Shown: positions 541 through 22,613, numbered from the stretch's first letter. The stretch is 23,544 nt of DNA from a virus (IMGVR_UViG_3300048007_000215:1-23544); one strand, 5' to 3'. The notes: generated by a model from the sequence alone, not told the origin. Numbers and translations: made by a program.

Positions 541-2088
541 ATGTACGATAAACACAAAGCAGAGAGAGTAATAAAGTTTATAGAGCGCATTACTACGCAT
601 ACGAAAGGAGAGCTAGCGAAGCAGCCCTTTATGCTAGAGCCTTTCCAAAAGCAAGTAATAAGCGATATATTCGGCAACGTGAACGAGGAAGGCTTGCGCA
701 TCACGCGCGAAGCTTTCCTTTTTTGGCCTCGTAAGAATGGTAAAACGAATTTCTTAGCAGCTCTAGGCCTTTACTTATTGGTAGCAGATAACGAGCCCGG
801 CGCGGAAATAATAGTTTGTGCAGCGGACCGGGGCCAGGCTGGAATGATACACGAAATACAGAAGCAAATGGTTTTGCAAAGCCCTTTGCTAATGGATAAG
901 GTAAAGGTATACCGTAACAGCATAGTAGCTAAAGACGGGAGCTTTATACAAGCGCGAAGCGCTGACGCTGATACCGCCCACGGTTATAATGCTCACGCGG
1001 TTTTATTTGACGAGCTGCACAGCCAACCGAATAGGGAACTTTACGACGTAATGAAGACGGCGAGCGGAGCTAGGAGGCAGCCGCTTTTTTTTAGCATATC
1101 TACAGCGGGAACGAATAAGGAGAGTATTTGCTACGAGGTATACGACTACGCTAAAAAGGTTAGAGACGGAGTTATAGAAGATCCTACCTTTTACCCGCAT
1201 ATCTTTGAAGCTGACGAGGAGGACGATATTTATAGCCCTAAGACCTGGAAGAAAGCTAACCCCGGCTTTGGTGTAACTATTAAAGCGGACTATATAGAAG
1301 CGCAAGCTAAGAAAGCTAAAGCTTTGGTAACGTATGAGAATACTTTTAGAAGGTTACACTTGAACCAATGGACTACGAGCGAGGTAAGATGGATAAGCGA
1401 TGAAGATTACCTAAGCTGTAGTAAGGACTATAAAGACTACGAGCTAGAGGGTAGAGACTGCTACGCTGCTTTAGATCTTGCGAGTACTGAGGATTTAACG
1501 GCGCTAGTTTTAATCTTCCCGCCGGTAGAGGAAGACGAGCCTTTTAAAACTATGGTCTATAGCTGGGTAAGTGAGGCGGCAGTAGATAGAAGGAAAGGTA
1601 AGAGCGGAGCGGACTATAATAATTTTATAGCTAGGGAGGAGCTGACAGTAACACCGGGTAACGTAACGGACTACCGCTATATAGAGGACACTATTTACGA
1701 GGTGGCTAGCTTATACAATATCAAGGCTATAGCTTTCGATAGGTGGAATTCCAGCAGCCTTATAGCCGCGTTAGCGGAGGAAGGGCTACCGGTGGAGCCT
1801 TACGGCCAAGGCTTCGCAAGTATGAGCCCAGCTATTAAGCAGTTGGAGATATGGATAAGGAGCGGGCAGATAGCGCATAACGGTAATAGGCTACTGCGGT
1901 GGTGTGTTAGTAATGTGCAGGCTAAAAGTGATCCGGCAGGAAACTTAAAGTTTGACAAAGCTAAGAGCACGGATAAAATAGACGTAGCGCAAGCTTGGGC
2001 TATGGCTGTGGGTATTTGGTTAGTGAAGCATAGAAGCGAGGACCAGGACGGCAGTATATACGACGAGCGGGACCTAATTATATTATAA
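541..2088 (+). CDS. terL: Terminase large subunit (packaging ATPase and nuclease)
   Basis: Packaging motor protein that hydrolyses ATP to drive DNA into the prohead and cuts the concatemer. The 515 residues are full length for the HK97-type Terminase_1 family. The Walker A variant is RKNGKT at 64-69, Walker B is VLFDELH at 154-160 with D157/E158, and the coupling motif STAG is at 187-190. The C-terminal RNase H-like nuclease has acidic residues at D312 (ALDLAST), D400 (FDRW) and D481 (KIDVAQAWAMA). All catalytic positions look intact. Isoleucine is mostly ATA: ten of the first twelve Ile codons. The stop overlaps the next ATG (TAATG), suggesting coupled translation of the following 57-residue protein. 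Confidence 0.96.
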   Translation: MYDKHKAERVIKFIERITTHTKGELAKQPFMLEPFQKQVISDIFGNVNEEGLRITREAFLFWPRKNGKTNFLAALGLYLLVADNEPGAEIIVCAADRGQAGMIHEIQKQMVLQSPLLMDKVKVYRNSIVAKDGSFIQARSADADTAHGYNAHAVLFDELHSQPNRELYDVMKTASGARRQPLFFSISTAGTNKESICYEVYDYAKKVRDGVIEDPTFYPHIFEADEEDDIYSPKTWKKANPGFGVTIKADYIEAQAKKAKALVTYENTFRRLHLNQWTTSEVRWISDEDYLSCSKDYKDYELEGRDCYAALDLASTEDLTALVLIFPPVEEDEPFKTMVYSWVSEAAVDRRKGKSGADYNNFIAREELTVTPGNVTDYRYIEDTIYEVASLYNIKAIAFDRWNSSSLIAALAEEGLPVEPYGQGFASMSPAIKQLEIWIRSGQIAHNGNRLLRWCVSNVQAKSDPAGNLKFDKAKSTDKIDVAQAWAMAVGIWLVKHRSEDQDGSIYDERDLIIL

Positions 2089-2261
2089 TGACGGTAGAGG
2101 AAGCAAAAAAGCTAACTTTTTTTTTAATGGATAAAAAAATAGTAGCCTTTCCGCAGGTCAGTAATGGCGGGGCTTGCGTTAATATATTGGTAGAGGGAGA
2201 ATGTTATACCCTAAAAAAAAATGCAAATTTTTACGGGAAAACTTGCGGGGAAAGAAAATAG
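2088..2261 (+). CDS. Hypothetical 57-residue protein
   Basis: Small ORF whose ATG overlaps the TerL stop (TAATG). The product begins MTVEEAKKLTFFLMDKK and contains three cysteines (about 30, 39 and 53). It is predicted to be a small soluble protein with a short helix followed by beta strands. No family is recognised. The stop-start overlap with TerL is the main support for it being real. It precedes a candidate promoter that overlaps its last codons, so it may be the tail of the terminase transcript rather than a member of the next cassette. Confidence 0.6.
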   Translation: MTVEEAKKLTFFLMDKKIVAFPQVSNGGACVNILVEGECYTLKKNANFYGKTCGERK

Positions 2262-2272
2262 CCGTATATTTA
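2242..2272 (+). promoter_or_regulatory. Candidate Bacteroidota-type promoter for the small-gene cassette
   Basis: A TTG at 2243-2245 (-33 element) is separated by 19 bases from TATATTTA at 2265-2272, one mismatch from the Bacteroidota -7 element TAnnTTTG. The spacing is within the known range. A purine- and AAC-rich leader without a Shine-Dalgarno sequence leads to the ATG at 2312. The motif match is seen; promoter activity is inferred. Confidence 0.5.
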
Positions 2273-2311
2273 CACCAGTAATAACAACAACTACTACTAA
2301 ATACTAGTAAA

Positions 2312-2515
2312 ATGCAACAAGGCAAAACATTAACAACCCAGCAAACAGTAGGAACTACTTATAAGAGCGTAGTAAATGTATACTGGTTTTGCGACGAAGA
2401 ACTAGGTATTTACTCAAAAACTTATACTAATCATTACGGAGAAGATGTAACAAAGTTTTATAATTCCTCTAAAGCTGTTACAACTGCTTACAAAAGAGCA
2501 TTAAAAAAAATATAA
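2312..2515 (+). CDS. Hypothetical 67-residue protein
   Basis: First gene after the candidate promoter, and probably first of a run of five translationally linked small genes. The product is rich in Thr, Tyr and Lys (QQGKTLTTQQTVGTTYKS near the start) with a central VYWFCDEE segment and a basic C-terminus, consistent with a small beta-rich soluble protein. No family is recognised. Its stop overlaps the next ATG (TAATG). Its A-rich, AAC-repeat leader (2280-2311) is typical of Bacteroidota initiation regions that lack Shine-Dalgarno sites. Confidence 0.7.
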   Translation: MQQGKTLTTQQTVGTTYKSVVNVYWFCDEELGIYSKTYTNHYGEDVTKFYNSSKAVTTAYKRALKKI

Positions 2516-2718
2516 TGCAAGACTGGCAAAATCAGCTACTATATAAAGAGGGCTTTATGAAACTAAAGAGAGTAATACAATACGCCGGCGCTGAGATCTT
2601 AGAGACTCAGCCCGGCTCTTTTACCGCCTTACCGAATACACCAAGCTTCTACGGAAGCCGCAAGTTTAACAGCTTAGAGAAAGCTAAATTTTATTTAAAG
2701 CAATGGCAAAGAAAGTAA
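2515..2718 (+). CDS. Hypothetical 67-residue protein
   Basis: Second gene of the small cassette, starting inside the stop of the previous gene (TAATG). The sequence begins MQDWQNQLLYKEGFMKLKRV. A later in-frame ATG at residue 15 could be an alternative start giving a 53-residue protein. The C-terminal part (SLEKAKFYLKQWQRK) looks like an amphipathic basic helix. No family is recognised. The following gene begins 16 bases before this one ends, so the two are probably co-translated. Confidence 0.65.
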   Translation: MQDWQNQLLYKEGFMKLKRVIQYAGAEILETQPGSFTALPNTPSFYGSRKFNSLEKAKFYLKQWQRK

Positions 2719-2852
2719 TAACCCAGGACCAAAAGGACGCAAGGGCGCTCTTAATCGTAGTAGCTAGCGGGCTGCTATTCTTCCCAGCTATGAACCTACT
2801 ACTTAAAGCTATGAGCTTTATACAGTACATTTTTTTAGGCTATGTCTACTAA
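2703..2852 (+). CDS. Small single-pass membrane protein (49 residues)
   Basis: ATG-started ORF overlapping the end of the preceding gene by 16 bases and the next gene by 11. A charged N-terminus (AKKVITQDQKDAR) is followed by a hydrophobic stretch from about residue 15 to 34 (LLIVVASGLLFFPAMNLLLK) and a second, weaker hydrophobic end rich in Phe/Tyr. It is therefore a predicted inner-membrane protein, perhaps with a re-entrant second segment. No homology is recognised. Tiny membrane proteins between terminase and portal are not part of the standard head module, so an accessory role (for example host interference) is possible but unproven. Confidence 0.6.
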   Translation: MAKKVITQDQKDARALLIVVASGLLFFPAMNLLLKAMSFIQYIFLGYVY

Positions 2853-2964
2853 GATAGGTTACTACTGCGAAGCTTGCGCTATTTATACGGAAGCTGGAGA
2901 AGATCCGCAGGCCTGCGCCGCTTGCATAGAAAAGGAATACGAAAACGCTATATTATTTATATGA
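2842..2964 (+). CDS. 40-residue four-cysteine (zinc-ribbon-like) protein
   Basis: Tiny ORF overlapping the previous gene by 11 bases and the next gene by 4 (ATGA). Its sequence contains two CxxC pairs, C9-x2-C12 and C25-x2-C28, separated by 12 residues, the arrangement of a small treble-clef or zinc-ribbon knuckle. Zinc binding is inferred from cysteine spacing only. It is read in a different frame from the overlapping neighbours, and the cysteine pattern together with the chained overlaps argues that it is a real gene. It could bind nucleic acid or a host protein; no specific function can be given. Confidence 0.6.
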   Translation: MSTKIGYYCEACAIYTEAGEDPQACAACIEKEYENAILFI

Positions 2965-3137
2965 GAATCATTTTAGTAGAATCTAAGAGCTCTAGAAGGG
3001 TAGAAGGCTTTAGGACACTTACCAAAGCTTGCAAGGCCTTAAACTTAAACTACAGTACTTTAACCAAGGTTATAAACTCCAAGTGCAACTACTACGAGAA
3101 CGACCGCTTTAAAATTACTAGGCTCCCTATACAATAA
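2961..3137 (+). CDS. Small helix-turn-helix-like protein (58 residues)
   Basis: Chosen start is the ATG at 2961, which overlaps the preceding stop as ATGA; the same frame is open further upstream to a TTG at 2874, but that would run through the four-cysteine gene. The core TLTKACKALNLNYSTLTKVIN (residues 19-39, read as TLTKACKALNLN then YSTLTKVIN) resembles the short helix-turn-helix seen in NUMOD1-type DNA-binding modules of homing endonucleases and in small regulators. The N-terminus is a beta strand (RIILVES). It may be a freestanding DNA-binding protein that regulates the cassette or the portal promoter 38 bases downstream. The fold call is by pattern only. Confidence 0.6.
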   Translation: MRIILVESKSSRRVEGFRTLTKACKALNLNYSTLTKVINSKCNYYENDRFKITRLPIQ

Positions 3138-3174
3138 AAAACGCAACCAAACAAGAAGTAAAGACTTTTTTTTG

Positions 3175-3182
3175 TATATTTG
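3175..3182 (+). promoter_or_regulatory. Candidate -7 element ahead of the portal gene
   Basis: TATATTTG, followed by C, is a perfect match to the Bacteroidota -7 element TAnnTTTG and sits 24 bases before the portal start codon in a 68-base gap between genes. I see no clear TTTG at the expected -33 position, so the promoter is incomplete by consensus. If used, the leader would be very short (roughly 15 bases). Confidence 0.45.
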
Positions 3183-3205
3183 CATAAAGTATACACTTCT
3201 AAGTT

Positions 3206-4426
3206 TTGGCAGAAAATAAAAACCCTGGGCTACTAGCCCGCTTATTTAGAAGCTCCCCGGAAAACCCCAGCACTAGTTTAGCTAATCCTGCTGCGTGGCT
3301 TACGGGGCTTTTTGGTACTAGCAAAACGGGAGTACAAGTAAGCGAAGACAACGCGCTAACCTTTAGCGCTGTTTATGCAGCCGTAAGGATCATAAGCGAA
3401 ACGATAGCTAGCATTCCTCTAAACGTATATAAAGCGGACGGAGAAACCCGCGTAAAAGCTATAGGCCATCCAATACAAAAGCTATTAGCAGAGCAGCCAA
3501 ATAGCGTGAGCTCTACCTTTACTTTTCGGGAATGTATGGCGGCTAACTTGGTGCTTCACGGCAACAGCTACGCAAAGATAGAAATGAACGGAGCCGGCAG
3601 GCCCGTATCTTTAACGCCTCTTAATCCTTTACTAGTAGAGGTTAAAATAGTAGACGGCGAAAAGGTCTATATATTCGATAAAAAGCACACGTACCTAGAT
3701 TACGAAGTATTACACTTTGTAGGGTTAAGCTTTAACGGCCTAACGGGTAAGAGCCCTATAACGGTAGCACGCGAAGCCGTAGCTATTGGGCTAGCGGCCC
3801 AAGAGTACGGCGCACGCTTCTACTCTAATGGCGCAAATACTGGCGGGGTTATTACGGCTCCCGGTAGATTGGATAACGAAATAATAAAGAGACTAAAAGC
3901 AAGCTGGAACCGAGCGCAAGCAGGTAACGCTAACGCGCACTCTACGGCTATCCTTGAAGAAGGTATGAAGTACGAGAAAATAGGACTAGATCCGGAGGCG
4001 GCCCAGTTCTTACAGTCTCGTAAATTCCAAGTAAACGAAATAGCTAGAATCTTTAGAATACCTCCGAGCTACTTAGCGGACCTTGAGAACTCAAGCACTA
4101 GAGCTAACGTAGAACAGCAAAGTATAGTATTCGTTAGGGACTGTCTACAGCCTTACGTTAGGCGTATGGAGGTAGAGCTAAACCGTAAGCTATTTAGAGA
4201 GGACGAGAGTAACTACTACGCTTACTTTACCCTAGAGGGTTTAATGCGAGGGGACCAAAAGGCAAGGTATGAAGCTTACGCTACTGCCCGACAATGGGGC
4301 TGGCTATCGGTAAATGATATTAGGGACCTAGAGAACCTAAACCCGGTAGAGGGTGGAGACATTTACCTACAGCCTTTAAATATGGTCCAAAGCGGACAAG
4401 ATAATACTAACGTAGACGCTGACTAA
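3206..4426 (+). CDS. Portal protein, HK97 family
   Basis: Dodecameric ring at the capsid vertex through which DNA enters and leaves. The 406-residue length fits HK97-type portals. The N-terminal signature FSAVYAAVRIISETIASIPL (53-72) is diagnostic, and the C-terminal clip/wing part contains IPPSYL and a STRANVEQQ segment (around 283-305), both typical of the family. The start is an unusual TTG: there is an in-frame TAA six bases upstream and the first in-frame ATG lies more than 110 codons in, within conserved sequence. It stops immediately before the ATG of the protease gene, so the two are adjacent in one operon. Confidence 0.94.
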   Translation: MAENKNPGLLARLFRSSPENPSTSLANPAAWLTGLFGTSKTGVQVSEDNALTFSAVYAAVRIISETIASIPLNVYKADGETRVKAIGHPIQKLLAEQPNSVSSTFTFRECMAANLVLHGNSYAKIEMNGAGRPVSLTPLNPLLVEVKIVDGEKVYIFDKKHTYLDYEVLHFVGLSFNGLTGKSPITVAREAVAIGLAAQEYGARFYSNGANTGGVITAPGRLDNEIIKRLKASWNRAQAGNANAHSTAILEEGMKYEKIGLDPEAAQFLQSRKFQVNEIARIFRIPPSYLADLENSSTRANVEQQSIVFVRDCLQPYVRRMEVELNRKLFREDESNYYAYFTLEGLMRGDQKARYEAYATARQWGWLSVNDIRDLENLNPVEGGDIYLQPLNMVQSGQDNTNVDAD

Positions 4427-18679: not shown

Positions 18680-18682
18680 AAA

Positions 18683-18700
18683 AAGCCCCGTTAGGGGCTT
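18683..18700 (+). terminator. Bidirectional intrinsic terminator
   Basis: AAGCCCC (18683-18689), loop GTTA (18690-18693), GGGGCTT (18694-18700), with an A-run before it and CTCTTTT after. The A-run gives a U-tract on the other strand, so it can end transcripts from both sides. It lies between the convergent spanin gene and the minus-strand gene at 18706-18972. Confidence 0.85.
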
Positions 18701-19641: not shown

Positions 19642-19911
19642 ATGAAAACAGCGATTCAAACAAACGGAGCAACTACTTACTTTACTAAGACTATCGACGT
19701 ACTTACTGAGGGAGGACTAACAGCACAGCTTACCTTAACTAGAAGAGTTATAAAAGTAACTAGCGAAGATCACAAAACTAAAACTACTTACGCTATTACT
19801 TATAAGGGTAAAAATGTAAGCTCTTACGAACTTAACTACAAAAGCGAAGTAAAATACTTTTTAAACTTCCTAGACAATTACGCAGAGCGTATAATTGCAA
19901 TGAACTATTAA
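19642..19911 (+). CDS. Hypothetical 89-residue protein, first early gene
   Basis: First gene after the candidate early promoter. Rich in Thr and Lys with alternating beta-like segments (AIQTNGATTYFTKTIDV, LTAQLTLTRRVIKVTS, TTYAITYKGKN) and a C-terminal amphipathic helix (KYFLNFLDNYAERIIAMNY). Predicted small soluble beta-sheet protein; no family is recognised. It is followed at once by a hairpin terminator, so it seems to be its own transcript, perhaps an abundantly expressed takeover protein. That role is inference from position and leader only. Confidence 0.78.
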   Translation: MKTAIQTNGATTYFTKTIDVLTEGGLTAQLTLTRRVIKVTSEDHKTKTTYAITYKGKNVSSYELNYKSEVKYFLNFLDNYAERIIAMNY

Positions 19912-20022: not shown

Positions 20023-20136
20023 ATGAAAAAAGATTATTTAGCAACGTTCTACTCTACACTATGGCACGTTAAAAACCCTAAAGAAAAGGGAGTAAAAGTA
20101 GCAGACAGTTTAGAAAAGGAAAAATGCAGAAAATAA
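20023..20136 (+). CDS. Hypothetical 37-residue basic protein
   Basis: Tiny ORF with an A-rich leader, starting 18 bases after leader element A and overlapping the methyltransferase start by 13 bases. The product begins MKKDYLATFYSTLWHVKN and is Lys-rich. It may be a real small protein or a leader ORF that couples translation to the methyltransferase. No family is recognised. Confidence 0.5.
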   Translation: MKKDYLATFYSTLWHVKNPKEKGVKVADSLEKEKCRK

Positions 20137-21140
20137 CGCAGTTAGATTTGTTTTCCGGAATAGGTGGCTTTCACCTGGGCTTTGAGCGAGCAGGCTACGA
20201 AGTAAAGAGCTATTTTAGTGAGATAGATAAGCACGCGGTAGCGGTGTATAAACAACAATTTAAAGACGCAGAATATGTCGGAACAGTTGCTGATGTTCGA
20301 GGAGCAGAGCTCTCAAGAATCGACCTTATCACTTTCGGAAGCCCTTGTCAAGACTTTAGCCTGGCTGGAAAGCGTAAAGGTCTCTCCGGAGACCGCAGCT
20401 CCCTTGTGCTTGAAGCAATACGGCTCATTAACGAATGCCGACCAAGTGTTTTTATTTGGGAAAACGTTAAAGGAACTTTCTCCTCAAACGCTGGCGCAGA
20501 CTTTTGGGCAATTATCCAAGCCTTTACCAACATTGGGGGCTATAGACTTGAATGGCAATTGTGTAACACAAGTTGGATTTTACCACAAAACCGCGAGCGC
20601 GTATACCTTGTCGGATATTCTACAACCCCCAAAGGAGATTGGCGAGGAGTTTTTCCTATCAGAAAGGGCAATGAAAAAAGTAATGAGTTGGAAAGACAAC
20701 AAGGTATCGCCAATTGCCTCCACACCAAGTACCAAAATCTCGGAAATGGTGCGTACATTAGTGAACGCTCACTCAAGAAAGACATAAAAGTAAAAAGCGC
20801 AACCTCTAAAGAAGCAGTAGTAGAGCCTACAACTTGCAGAGGTGGATTACAAAAGAATGCAGCACACTTTGAAGAGAAAAGCCCTGCGCTTACTTCTGCT
20901 ATGGGAATGGGAGGAGGACACACACCAATAGTAGACCAACCTAACTACCGCATAAGAAGACTAACCCCTATAGAGTGCGAGAGGTTACAAGGCTTTCCCG
21001 ATAACCATACCGAGTACGGTAACTACGATGGGGAAGTAAAGAAGATGAGCAACACCCAACGCTATAAGCAATGTGGTAACGCAGTTACGGTAGATATTGT
21101 AGCTTTGGTAGCCGAGGCGGTTAAGCCTCTTTTTAAATAG
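20124..21140 (+). CDS. DNA (cytosine-5) methyltransferase
   Basis: Transfers methyl groups from S-adenosylmethionine to cytosine C5 in DNA, probably protecting phage DNA from host restriction. All conserved motifs are present in 338 residues: motif I DLFSGIGGF (8-16), motif IV GSPCQDFS (72-79) with catalytic C75, motif VI ENV (113-115), motif VIII QNRERV (155-160), and motifs IX and X in RLTPIECERLQGFPD (279-293) and QCGNAV (316-321). The target-recognition region (about 165-275) is short. No restriction enzyme gene is nearby, so it is an orphan. Residues 51-221 overlap a second open frame of 170 codons; in that segment codon use differs sharply from the rest of the gene. Confidence 0.95.
   Translation: MQKITQLDLFSGIGGFHLGFERAGYEVKSYFSEIDKHAVAVYKQQFKDAEYVGTVADVRGAELSRIDLITFGSPCQDFSLAGKRKGLSGDRSSLVLEAIRLINECRPSVFIWENVKGTFSSNAGADFWAIIQAFTNIGGYRLEWQLCNTSWILPQNRERVYLVGYSTTPKGDWRGVFPIRKGNEKSNELERQQGIANCLHTKYQNLGNGAYISERSLKKDIKVKSATSKEAVVEPTTCRGGLQKNAAHFEEKSPALTSAMGMGGGHTPIVDQPNYRIRRLTPIECERLQGFPDNHTEYGNYDGEVKKMSNTQRYKQCGNAVTVDIVALVAEAVKPLFK
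20275..20787 (+). CDS. Possible overprinted gene inside the methyltransferase (170 residues)
   Basis: Open reading frame in the +1 frame relative to the methyltransferase, with an ATG and a TAA. Seen: the isoleucine codon ATA, used in seven of eight Ile positions in the flanking parts of the methyltransferase, is used in only one of twelve inside the overlap, and ATA followed by A or G makes a stop in the +1 frame. The product has TLSDIL at 111-116 and FFLSERA at 126-132, resembling by memory the SLSDILE...yFLS..A pattern of a hypothetical protein family often beside phage methyltransferases. The N-terminus begins MSEQLLMFEEQ, also like such proteins. Not proven to be expressed; it may be real dual coding or a relic. 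Confidence 0.5.
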   Translation: MSEQLLMFEEQSSQESTLSLSEALVKTLAWLESVKVSPETAAPLCLKQYGSLTNADQVFLFGKTLKELSPQTLAQTFGQLSKPLPTLGAIDLNGNCVTQVGFYHKTASAYTLSDILQPPKEIGEEFFLSERAMKKVMSWKDNKVSPIASTPSTKISEMVRTLVNAHSRKT

Positions 21141-21666: not shown

Positions 21667-21840
21667 ATGTTTTTAACTAACTACACTACCGATAAGGTAA
21701 AGTTAGCTTTTATGTACGTTGAGATGCTCCGGAGTAACTGGAGCAATCTCGACGACGAAAGAAAGCAACAGCTCCTAAAGCAAATTAGCGAGCTTACAAA
21801 CGTAGATTTTATAACCCAGGAATTCGAAAGCAAGCTATGA
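21667..21840 (+). CDS. Hypothetical 57-residue protein
   Basis: Small acidic helical ORF (MFLTNYTTDKVKLAFMYVEML, here cut into MFLTNYTTDK and VKLAFMYVEML; then DDERKQQLLKQISELTN) starting three bases after the SSB-like stop and overlapping the exonuclease start as ATGA. Tight coupling on both sides supports it. It may be a small partner of the recombination proteins, but no family is recognised. Confidence 0.65.
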   Translation: MFLTNYTTDKVKLAFMYVEMLRSNWSNLDDERKQQLLKQISELTNVDFITQEFESKL

Positions 21841-22613
21841 AGATCAAGTTACTAGACGGTAAGGAATGGGACCGCGTAGAGATATTAGAGCAGATGCTTA
21901 ACGACGATTTTTACTACGGTTATTTAGGCAAGGCAGCACTAAGCAGCTCCAGTTTAAAGAAGCTACTGCAAAGCCCCAAAGTCTACCAAGCGAGCTTAAA
22001 CGAAGCGCAGGTAGAAACTAAGCCACTACGAGAGGGCAAGCTTATACATTTGCTTCTTTTGGAACCTCATAAAGAGGAAAGCTTACACGTAGTAGACGTA
22101 AAGACCAGGACCGCGAAAGCGTATAAAGACGCTGCGCTAGAGTATGGACCGGAGAACACCTTTACAGCTATAGAAATAGCCACAGCTAAGAAAGTAGCTA
22201 GAGCGGTTAAGGACTGTCCGGAAGCTTACGAGATGATCTACGGAGCGGCTACGGAAGTACCGCAGATAGGAAATATAATGGGGCTCCCTTTTAGATGTAA
22301 GGCCGATATACTACATAAAGGCCAGCGTATAGTAGACTTAAAGACTACTGCCGATATACATAAGTTTAAGTATAATGCTTATACTTTCGGCTACGATGCA
22401 CAAGCTGCAATCTATACGCACCTATTCGGGTTAGAGGAGTTTACTTTTTTGGTAGTAGATAAAAGCAGCTACGACGTAGGTATATTTACCACGGGCGAAG
22501 ACTTTATAAAGAAAGGTAAAGAAAAGGTAGCTAGAGCTATCGACGTTTACCGCGAGTACTACCAAGAGGGTAAACCGTTAAGCCAGTATATTATTAGAGA
22601 TCATTTTAGTTAA
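21837..22613 (+). CDS. RecE/exonuclease VIII-like PD-(D/E)XK nuclease
   Basis: Predicted 5'-3' double-strand DNA exonuclease for phage recombination and replication. In 258 residues it has the recB/RecE-type motifs in order: H71 in LREGKLIHLLLLEP, E140 (TEVPQIGN), D157 (RCKADIL), D167-x-K169 in IVDLKTT, and Q189 in YDAQAAIY. These form the metal-binding site, and all are present. The family pairs with single-strand annealing proteins; here the upstream SSB-like gene and small ORF are its neighbours, and no obvious annealase (RecT, Erf, Sak) is visible in the window. The ATG overlaps the previous stop by four bases. Confidence 0.88.
   Translation: MKIKLLDGKEWDRVEILEQMLNDDFYYGYLGKAALSSSSLKKLLQSPKVYQASLNEAQVETKPLREGKLIHLLLLEPHKEESLHVVDVKTRTAKAYKDAALEYGPENTFTAIEIATAKKVARAVKDCPEAYEMIYGAATEVPQIGNIMGLPFRCKADILHKGQRIVDLKTTADIHKFKYNAYTFGYDAQAAIYTHLFGLEEFTFLVVDKSSYDVGIFTTGEDFIKKGKEKVARAIDVYREYYQEGKPLSQYIIRDHFS

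Follow-up and report, generated by a model that had tools for sequence, protein, structure and literature searches.

A small-gene slot with a predicted promoter and swappable cassette between the terminase and portal genes of a virus

Genes and signals between terminase and portal

The viral DNA IMGVR_UViG_3300048007_000215:1-23544 (23,544 bases; this whole stretch is called the window below) carries genes in the order TerS-TerL-portal-protease-capsid-tail, with a Terminase_4/TerL/Phage_portal/tape-measure gene set, and a chain of small genes in the gap between TerL and portal. TerL occupies 541-2088 (phrog_9, E 3e-162; Pfam TerL_nuclease/TerL_ATPase) and portal, with a TTG start, 3206-4426 (PF04860, E 7e-108); both, like every gene and signal described between them, lie on the plus strand. 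An initial annotation had claimed six open reading frames (ORFs) of 57, 67, 67, 49, 40 and 58 codons in this gap, and all are present: a57 (2088-2261), b67 (2312-2515), c (ending at 2718), d49 (2703-2852), e40 (2842-2964) and f58 (2961-3137). The overlaps are also as described, with 1 nucleotide (nt) at the b/c join, 16 at c/d, 11 at d/e and 4 at e/f; a57 and b67 are separated by 50 nt, and a candidate promoter, P1, extends into that gap.

The ORFs are all short and none matches a curated library at cut-off, which would suit chance frames in a spacer. Dinucleotide-preserving shuffles of the segment 2089-3137 (n=1000), however, never gave six ATG ORFs of 40 or more codons (0/1000; mean 0.18) and never reached the observed ORF coverage of 92% (0/1000), so the chain is not a product of chance; together with the intact frames and purifying selection seen in relatives, this refutes the chance reading, to which we give practically no credence.

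A search of IMG/VR with TerL returned 46 loci, with TerL mostly 83-100% identical; 34 close relatives span the region, and counts for c-f and a57 are taken over these. All 34 have frames c to f uninterrupted, and the frame-disrupting changes that the initial annotation had named as counter-evidence do not appear in this core. In searches from f58 and c53, the portal gene lies 60-90 nt 3' of f58 in 61/61 f58 loci, and c53 and d49 are present in all 51 f58 loci with sufficient upstream sequence. The conserved start of ORF c is ATG 2557, which yields 53 amino acids (c53, 2557-2718), and not 2515, which yields 67; the 14-codon N-terminal extension is open in 14 of 35 sequences. Pooled ratios of nonsynonymous to synonymous change (dN/dS; Nei-Gojobori, overlapping frames included as they stand) are 0.13 for c53, 0.29 for d49, 0.45 for e40, 0.18 for f58 and 0.39 for a57, with 0.08 for TerL and 0.12 for portal as flanking comparisons. 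By these ratios the core c-d-e-f is under purifying selection.

Gene a57 was found in 31 of the 34 relatives, at 43-58 amino acids and truncated in a few; an unrelated 85-amino-acid gene takes its place in L017 and L021. Gene b67 has a single homologue, in L012, which is 89% identical and differs more at synonymous sites (proportion changed, pS, 0.26) than at nonsynonymous ones (pN 0.08). Further away, L039 (TerL 68% identical) retains an f58 homologue, 39% identical, and L043-L045 (TerL about 45%) have TerL-portal gaps of 165-634 nt without these genes. On this comparison the region is built of three layers: a57, a TerL-coupled companion; b67, this genome's swappable cassette gene; and c-d-e-f, a fixed core. 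The initial annotation had taken all six ORFs for an accessory insertion. That description fits b67, which is replaced wholesale in close relatives, and fails for the set as a whole, because c-d-e-f occurs in every close relative; the same genes in all relatives, with structural roles, had been named as grounds for abandoning the idea, and the core is indeed shared by all close relatives.

Promoter P1 (2242-2272) starts inside the 3' end of a57 and consists of CTTG (2242-2245), 19 nt and TATATTTA (2265-2272). The flavobacterial promoter consensus is TTTG / TANNTTTG (PMC6847099, PMC9723704), and by this likeness P1 is a Bacteroidota-type promoter, TTTG-N19-TANNTTTR. A match lies 155-158 nt after TerL in 42/42 complete slots, those running from TerL through c53, or 267 nt after it where the a-gene is longer; a candidate at the same offset in every slot agrees with the earlier proposal of an internal promoter ahead of five ORFs. 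The motif with the same spacing has a single other plus-strand match in the window, so the position of P1 is not random. Judged by promoter type, the host phylum is probably Bacteroidota. TerL matches in named phages fail to name a host, because none exceeds about 44% identity and most belong to phages of other phyla. The window has no close DNA relative among named phages, and its 64-nt promoter/leader has only weak matches there, the longest in Tenacibaculum phages (E 6, not significant).

The core might instead be a set of late genes, small by accident, whose products help in head formation or packaging: they would be transcribed together with TerL and portal and act in capsid assembly, and b67 alone would be accessory. 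It does lie between TerL and portal in all close relatives (the 61 loci above), c53 and f58 are about as constrained as portal, and, because no terminator separates the slot from TerL, its genes are reachable by read-through. However, P1 is fixed upstream in all 42 slots, so the core genes can form a separate unit; the lack of core genes in L043-L045 means that a terminase-portal pair does not need them; and a CxxC-CxxC protein, a hydrophobic peptide and a predicted DNA-binding domain make an atypical head set. We consider the head-helper explanation improbable.

Cassette exchange and shared leaders

Between P1 and b67 lies a predicted 5' leader (2277-2311, starting AGTAATAACAACAAC), here called type I. 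The window is collinear with seven relatives over several kilobases, except at about 2300-2556 and at the TerS-TerL junction. The first of these, the exchange segment (2300-2556), is unalignable among close relatives: homology on the left runs into the leader and on the right resumes at ATG 2557 or at 2513-2515, and identity to the nearest relatives is about 95-97% on either side, close to the segment. The guanine-plus-cytosine (GC) content of b67 is 31.4%, against 45.9% for TerL and 46.3% for portal. Cassette c6 is 97.3% identical between L001 and L035, against 81.2% for TerL and 81.4% for portal, and cassette c13 is 90.5% identical between L008 and L015, against 79.0% and 81.5%. At sequence level, these alignments show that cassettes are swapped and horizontally exchanged between phage backbones.

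Among the complete slots, 25 have one copy of P1, 13 have two, 3 have three and 1 has four. All 64 copies precede a small ORF, giving 51 distinct proteins in 24 families, and slot genes encode 32-160 amino acids. A GC-rich hairpin followed by a T-run separates nearly all cassette pairs in multi-cassette relatives. One cassette of the relatives matches phrog_6004 and another phrog_2287, both families of unknown function, and a homologous cassette gene occurs in several unrelated phages, with its own promoter-like sequence directly upstream.

The type I leader (CACCAGTAATAACAAC) stands ahead of every last cassette (42/42) and of 7 others. A type II leader (AAGTGTC...GACACT) is found ahead of earlier, non-last cassettes only (14); it could form the hairpin AGTGTC/GACACT, and precedes the c6 genes and some others (e.g. 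in L001, L004 and L035). A 24-mer of the leader, TATNTTTACAYCAGTAATAACAAC, is absent as an exact sequence from 84,980 prokaryote genomes; in IMG/VR a near-identical leader pattern occurs in 41 stretches and a relaxed pattern in 64, mostly of this virus family. The type I leader also follows directly on an unrelated TerL, ahead of small ORFs, in L049 (where that TerL is a Terminase_3C), L050, L061, L064, L066 and L073; it follows an amidase gene in L068 and L093, precedes small ORFs and an ERF recombinase gene in L082, and precedes small ORFs in L084, with a cytosine methylase further on. Outside the family the type II leader was found once, in L236, after a 317-amino-acid ORF that is TerL-like by eye and before a 60-amino-acid ORF. 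Judged by these gene contexts, the leader tends to open early-type gene blocks in unrelated phages, and it is mainly for this reason that we infer P1 to be early.

Relaxed-pattern matches in L081, L083, L085, L099 and L089 lacked an ORF start behind them, and we discarded them as arising by chance or inside genes. The idea of a dispersed repeat was also rejected, the leader element not recurring elsewhere in the window. In L097, an unrelated phage, an ORF about 596-1198 nt after a type I leader encodes repeated GNARV/GDAWV-like units. Elsewhere in the window, a cassette-like segment in the presumed early region (segment 19579-19935) holds an ORF of 89 amino acids (19642-19911) with an A-rich leader, an imperfect upstream promoter and a strong hairpin, GCCCCGCGAAAGCGGGGC, directly 3' of it. 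An exonuclease VIII-like gene (21837-22613; phrog_412) encodes a possible recombination enzyme for cassette exchange.

Predicted proteins and the element before portal

None of the products a-f matched Pfam, PHROGs or PADLOC above cut-off. The statement that no member has a recognised family therefore stands for a-e at cut-off and needs amending for f58, which weakly matches PF22083 (I-HmuI NUMOD-like; E 0.0015, 18.5 bits, below the cut-off of 27) and the I-HmuI fold. Its AlphaFold2 model (mean predicted local distance difference test, pLDDT, 87) has a beta-beta-helix-helix-beta-beta order, the helices being assigned as a helix-turn-helix. The best structural match is to I-HmuI residues 120-174 (VIA Z 5.7, root-mean-square deviation 2.5, 54 residues), where a Z under 8 may mean no more than a common arrangement; Foldseek matches the same domain with a probability of 0.90 but an E of 0.7, and other DNA-binding domains, such as that of I-TevI, are lower in the structural match list. 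The I-HmuI likeness is worth stating because the fold match agrees with the Pfam lead, and f58 is accordingly described as a predicted DNA-binding domain.

With I-HmuI's DNA-binding domain as its closest structural and Pfam match, and a weak tblastn hit (E 0.3) on a putative HNH gene in Listeria phages, f58 could be the remnant of an HNH homing endonuclease whose homing drives the variability of the slot. Yet none of the relatives seen carries a nuclease domain in its slot; f58 itself is fixed, with a dN/dS of 0.18 that indicates purifying selection; and the variable part of the unit lies at the opposite end from f58. We rejected the homing remnant as very improbable.

The protein with two CxxC pairs in the earlier description is e40: both pairs are kept in 34/34 homologues, and this zinc-ribbon-like product may bind zinc. 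Gene d49 encodes a hydrophobic stretch, by sequence, and its product may sit in the membrane. The model of c53 (pLDDT 82) is beta-rich with one helix, and a structure search with it gave no meaningful fold match. High-turnover small phage genes are usually explained by interaction with the host; by analogy, the small proteins of the slot may adjust the host or counter its defences.

Between f58 and portal lies a promoter-like element, P2 (3175-3199; element region 3168-3199), with a -7 box, TATATTTG (3175-3182), and a near-palindrome, AAAGTATACACTT, and with no clear -33 box. In aligned close relatives a T-run, TATATTTG(C) and AAAGTATAYACTT are all retained here with slight variation, and the portal start context, TTGGCAGA, is conserved; the distant L039 retains the TATATTTG box before portal. 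The near-palindrome AAAGTATAYACTT would overlap the predicted P2 transcription start. The arrangement suggests that portal may start its own transcript from P2, and gives f58 a possible target.

One extension of this is a temporal switch, in which P1 would make f58 early and f58 would then bind AAAGTATAYACTT, turning the portal/late operon on or off; such a switch is compatible with the plug-in slot set out below. It draws on the predicted DNA-binding f58 adjoining a conserved promoter-like element with a conserved near-palindrome, on the -7 box of P2 without a -33 box, as a regulated promoter might have, and on L039, which keeps both an f58 homologue and the TATATTTG box. However, DNA binding by f58 is a prediction from a model, the full near-palindrome has one occurrence in the window, and dimeric binding of palindromes is not known for the I-HmuI domain, which is part of a nuclease. 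We regard the switch as possible, though rather unlikely.

A plug-in slot and its known counterparts

We think it fairly likely that the TerL-portal gap is a dedicated plug-in slot, moron- or PeSL-like, with an early-type promoter inside the packaging/head gene block. The alignments show its anatomy and conservation, the swapping and horizontal exchange of its cassettes, and the sharing of its leader with unrelated phages. At the end of a57, P1 would start a separate transcription unit inside the block; the leader would read into one or more swapped small genes and then into the fixed mini-operon c-d-e-f, with portal next, preceded by a promoter-like element of its own, P2. Where further cassettes stand upstream, they have a predicted promoter of their own and usually a terminator, so each could work alone, and the last cassette would read through into c-f. 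For the recombination route and early expression we infer the following. Cassettes would recombine through the repeated promoter/leader block to their left and the conserved c gene to their right, a gene being replaced from about its start codon, and host RNA polymerase would transcribe the slot early. The weakest step is a function directed at the host: the small proteins may modify the host or oppose its defences, f58 as a DNA-binding protein, d49 as a membrane protein and e40 as a zinc-binding one.

Several observations weigh against the plug-in slot. At its last position the type I -7 box has A in place of the G that is nearly invariant in flavobacterial promoters (PMC6847099), so P1 may be weak or need a phage factor. 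Aligning TerL to the 84,980 genomes gave 49 pattern stretches, with no relative and no host among them. In the scanned longer contigs of the family the exact leader is confined to the TerL-portal slot, and it is therefore not a genome-wide dispersed element. The slot genes tested against PADLOC, Pfam and PHROGs gave no defence or counter-defence match, and no terminator was seen between b67 and c in the window.

A wider proposal is that a phage-specific promoter/leader module identifies a socket behind terminase in two or more unrelated phage lineages with presumed Bacteroidota hosts, through which a shared pool of tiny early host-takeover or counter-defence genes would circulate, with f58 coupling the slot to a late switch; this we hold to be unlikely as a whole.

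A second insertion slot lies at the TerS-TerL junction (536-541 in the window, where it is empty): an extra gene stands between the TerS stop and the TerL ATG in L002, L003, L005, L006, L011, L016, L021, L025, L029 and L034, of which L003, L006 and L011 are among the seven aligned relatives. The gene encodes either a PAPS-reductase-like protein of 279-283 amino acids (phrog_424, weak SspD match) or one of two types of N6/N4 DNA methyltransferase. By their matches these genes fit restriction avoidance or DNA modification at that site, a role that is not transferable to the small genes. The window has a DNA methyltransferase gene of its own (20124-21140; phrog_116, E 2e-84), overlapped by a 170-codon ORF in another frame (20275-20787). 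A hairpin between convergent genes (18680-18700; GCCCCGTTAGGGGC) probably terminates transcription in both directions where the late block ends; a minus-strand ORF of 88 amino acids follows it.

Although phages of Bacteroidota are common, their annotation is poor and most of their early host-acting genes are unknown. With the address of the slot fixed (TerL stop +155, promoter, leader, gene, c53), such genes could be harvested from metagenomes by position instead of homology, as was done here for 64 cassettes of 24 families from 42 slots, making the slot a ready-made place to look for host-acting proteins. The slot also provides naturally occurring promoters and leaders for expression work in these hosts, and a clear case in which to study how genes are swapped by phages while a packed structural operon stays undisturbed.

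The C-terminal DNA-binding domain of I-HmuI (PF22083; PDB 1u3e) is the counterpart of f58 in predicted fold and weak profile match; f58 differs in being free-standing, without the HNH nuclease domain. The hotspots of P2-like phages and P4 satellites (PMC9122126) are, like this slot, small high-turnover loci between two conserved phage genes. They carry tested anti-phage systems, whereas the genes here (32-160 amino acids) are unmatched, and their locus includes a fixed promoter and core. Such a hotspot is defined by genes with a known role in defence or counter-defence; the slot genes tested matched none of these, though genes of new function may be among them. Start-associated sequences of cluster K mycobacteriophages (PMC3203893) resemble the leader as short conserved sequences just 5' of the starts of unrelated small genes, but occur many times per genome; within this family we saw the leader in one slot only, and it is joined to a promoter.

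The closest likenesses are to morons and PeSLs, and we file the slot outside both because one of the defining features tested for each is missing. Like the morons of lambdoid and other siphophages (PMC2784084), b67 is an extra gene between structural genes, with a base composition unlike theirs and, by consensus and conservation, a predicted promoter of its own; internal cassettes of relatives usually have a terminator too. The cassette of the window differs in having no terminator and feeding a conserved operon, and several cassettes can stand in a row. PeSLs, the "mobile regulatory cassettes" of T4-like phages (Arbiol 2010 and Comeau 2014, cited in PMC4503421), consist of a terminator combined with an early-type promoter, repeated between small genes that can be swapped, and have been proposed to mediate their shuffling. 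The composite of terminator and promoter recurs likewise in our multi-cassette relatives, and the window has its promoter half only; in place of a T4-like phage with a T4-type early promoter we find TTTG/TANNTTTR. The slot is set apart from PeSLs by a flavobacterial-type promoter joined to a conserved 5' leader, a fixed place between terminase and portal, and a permanent four-gene core.

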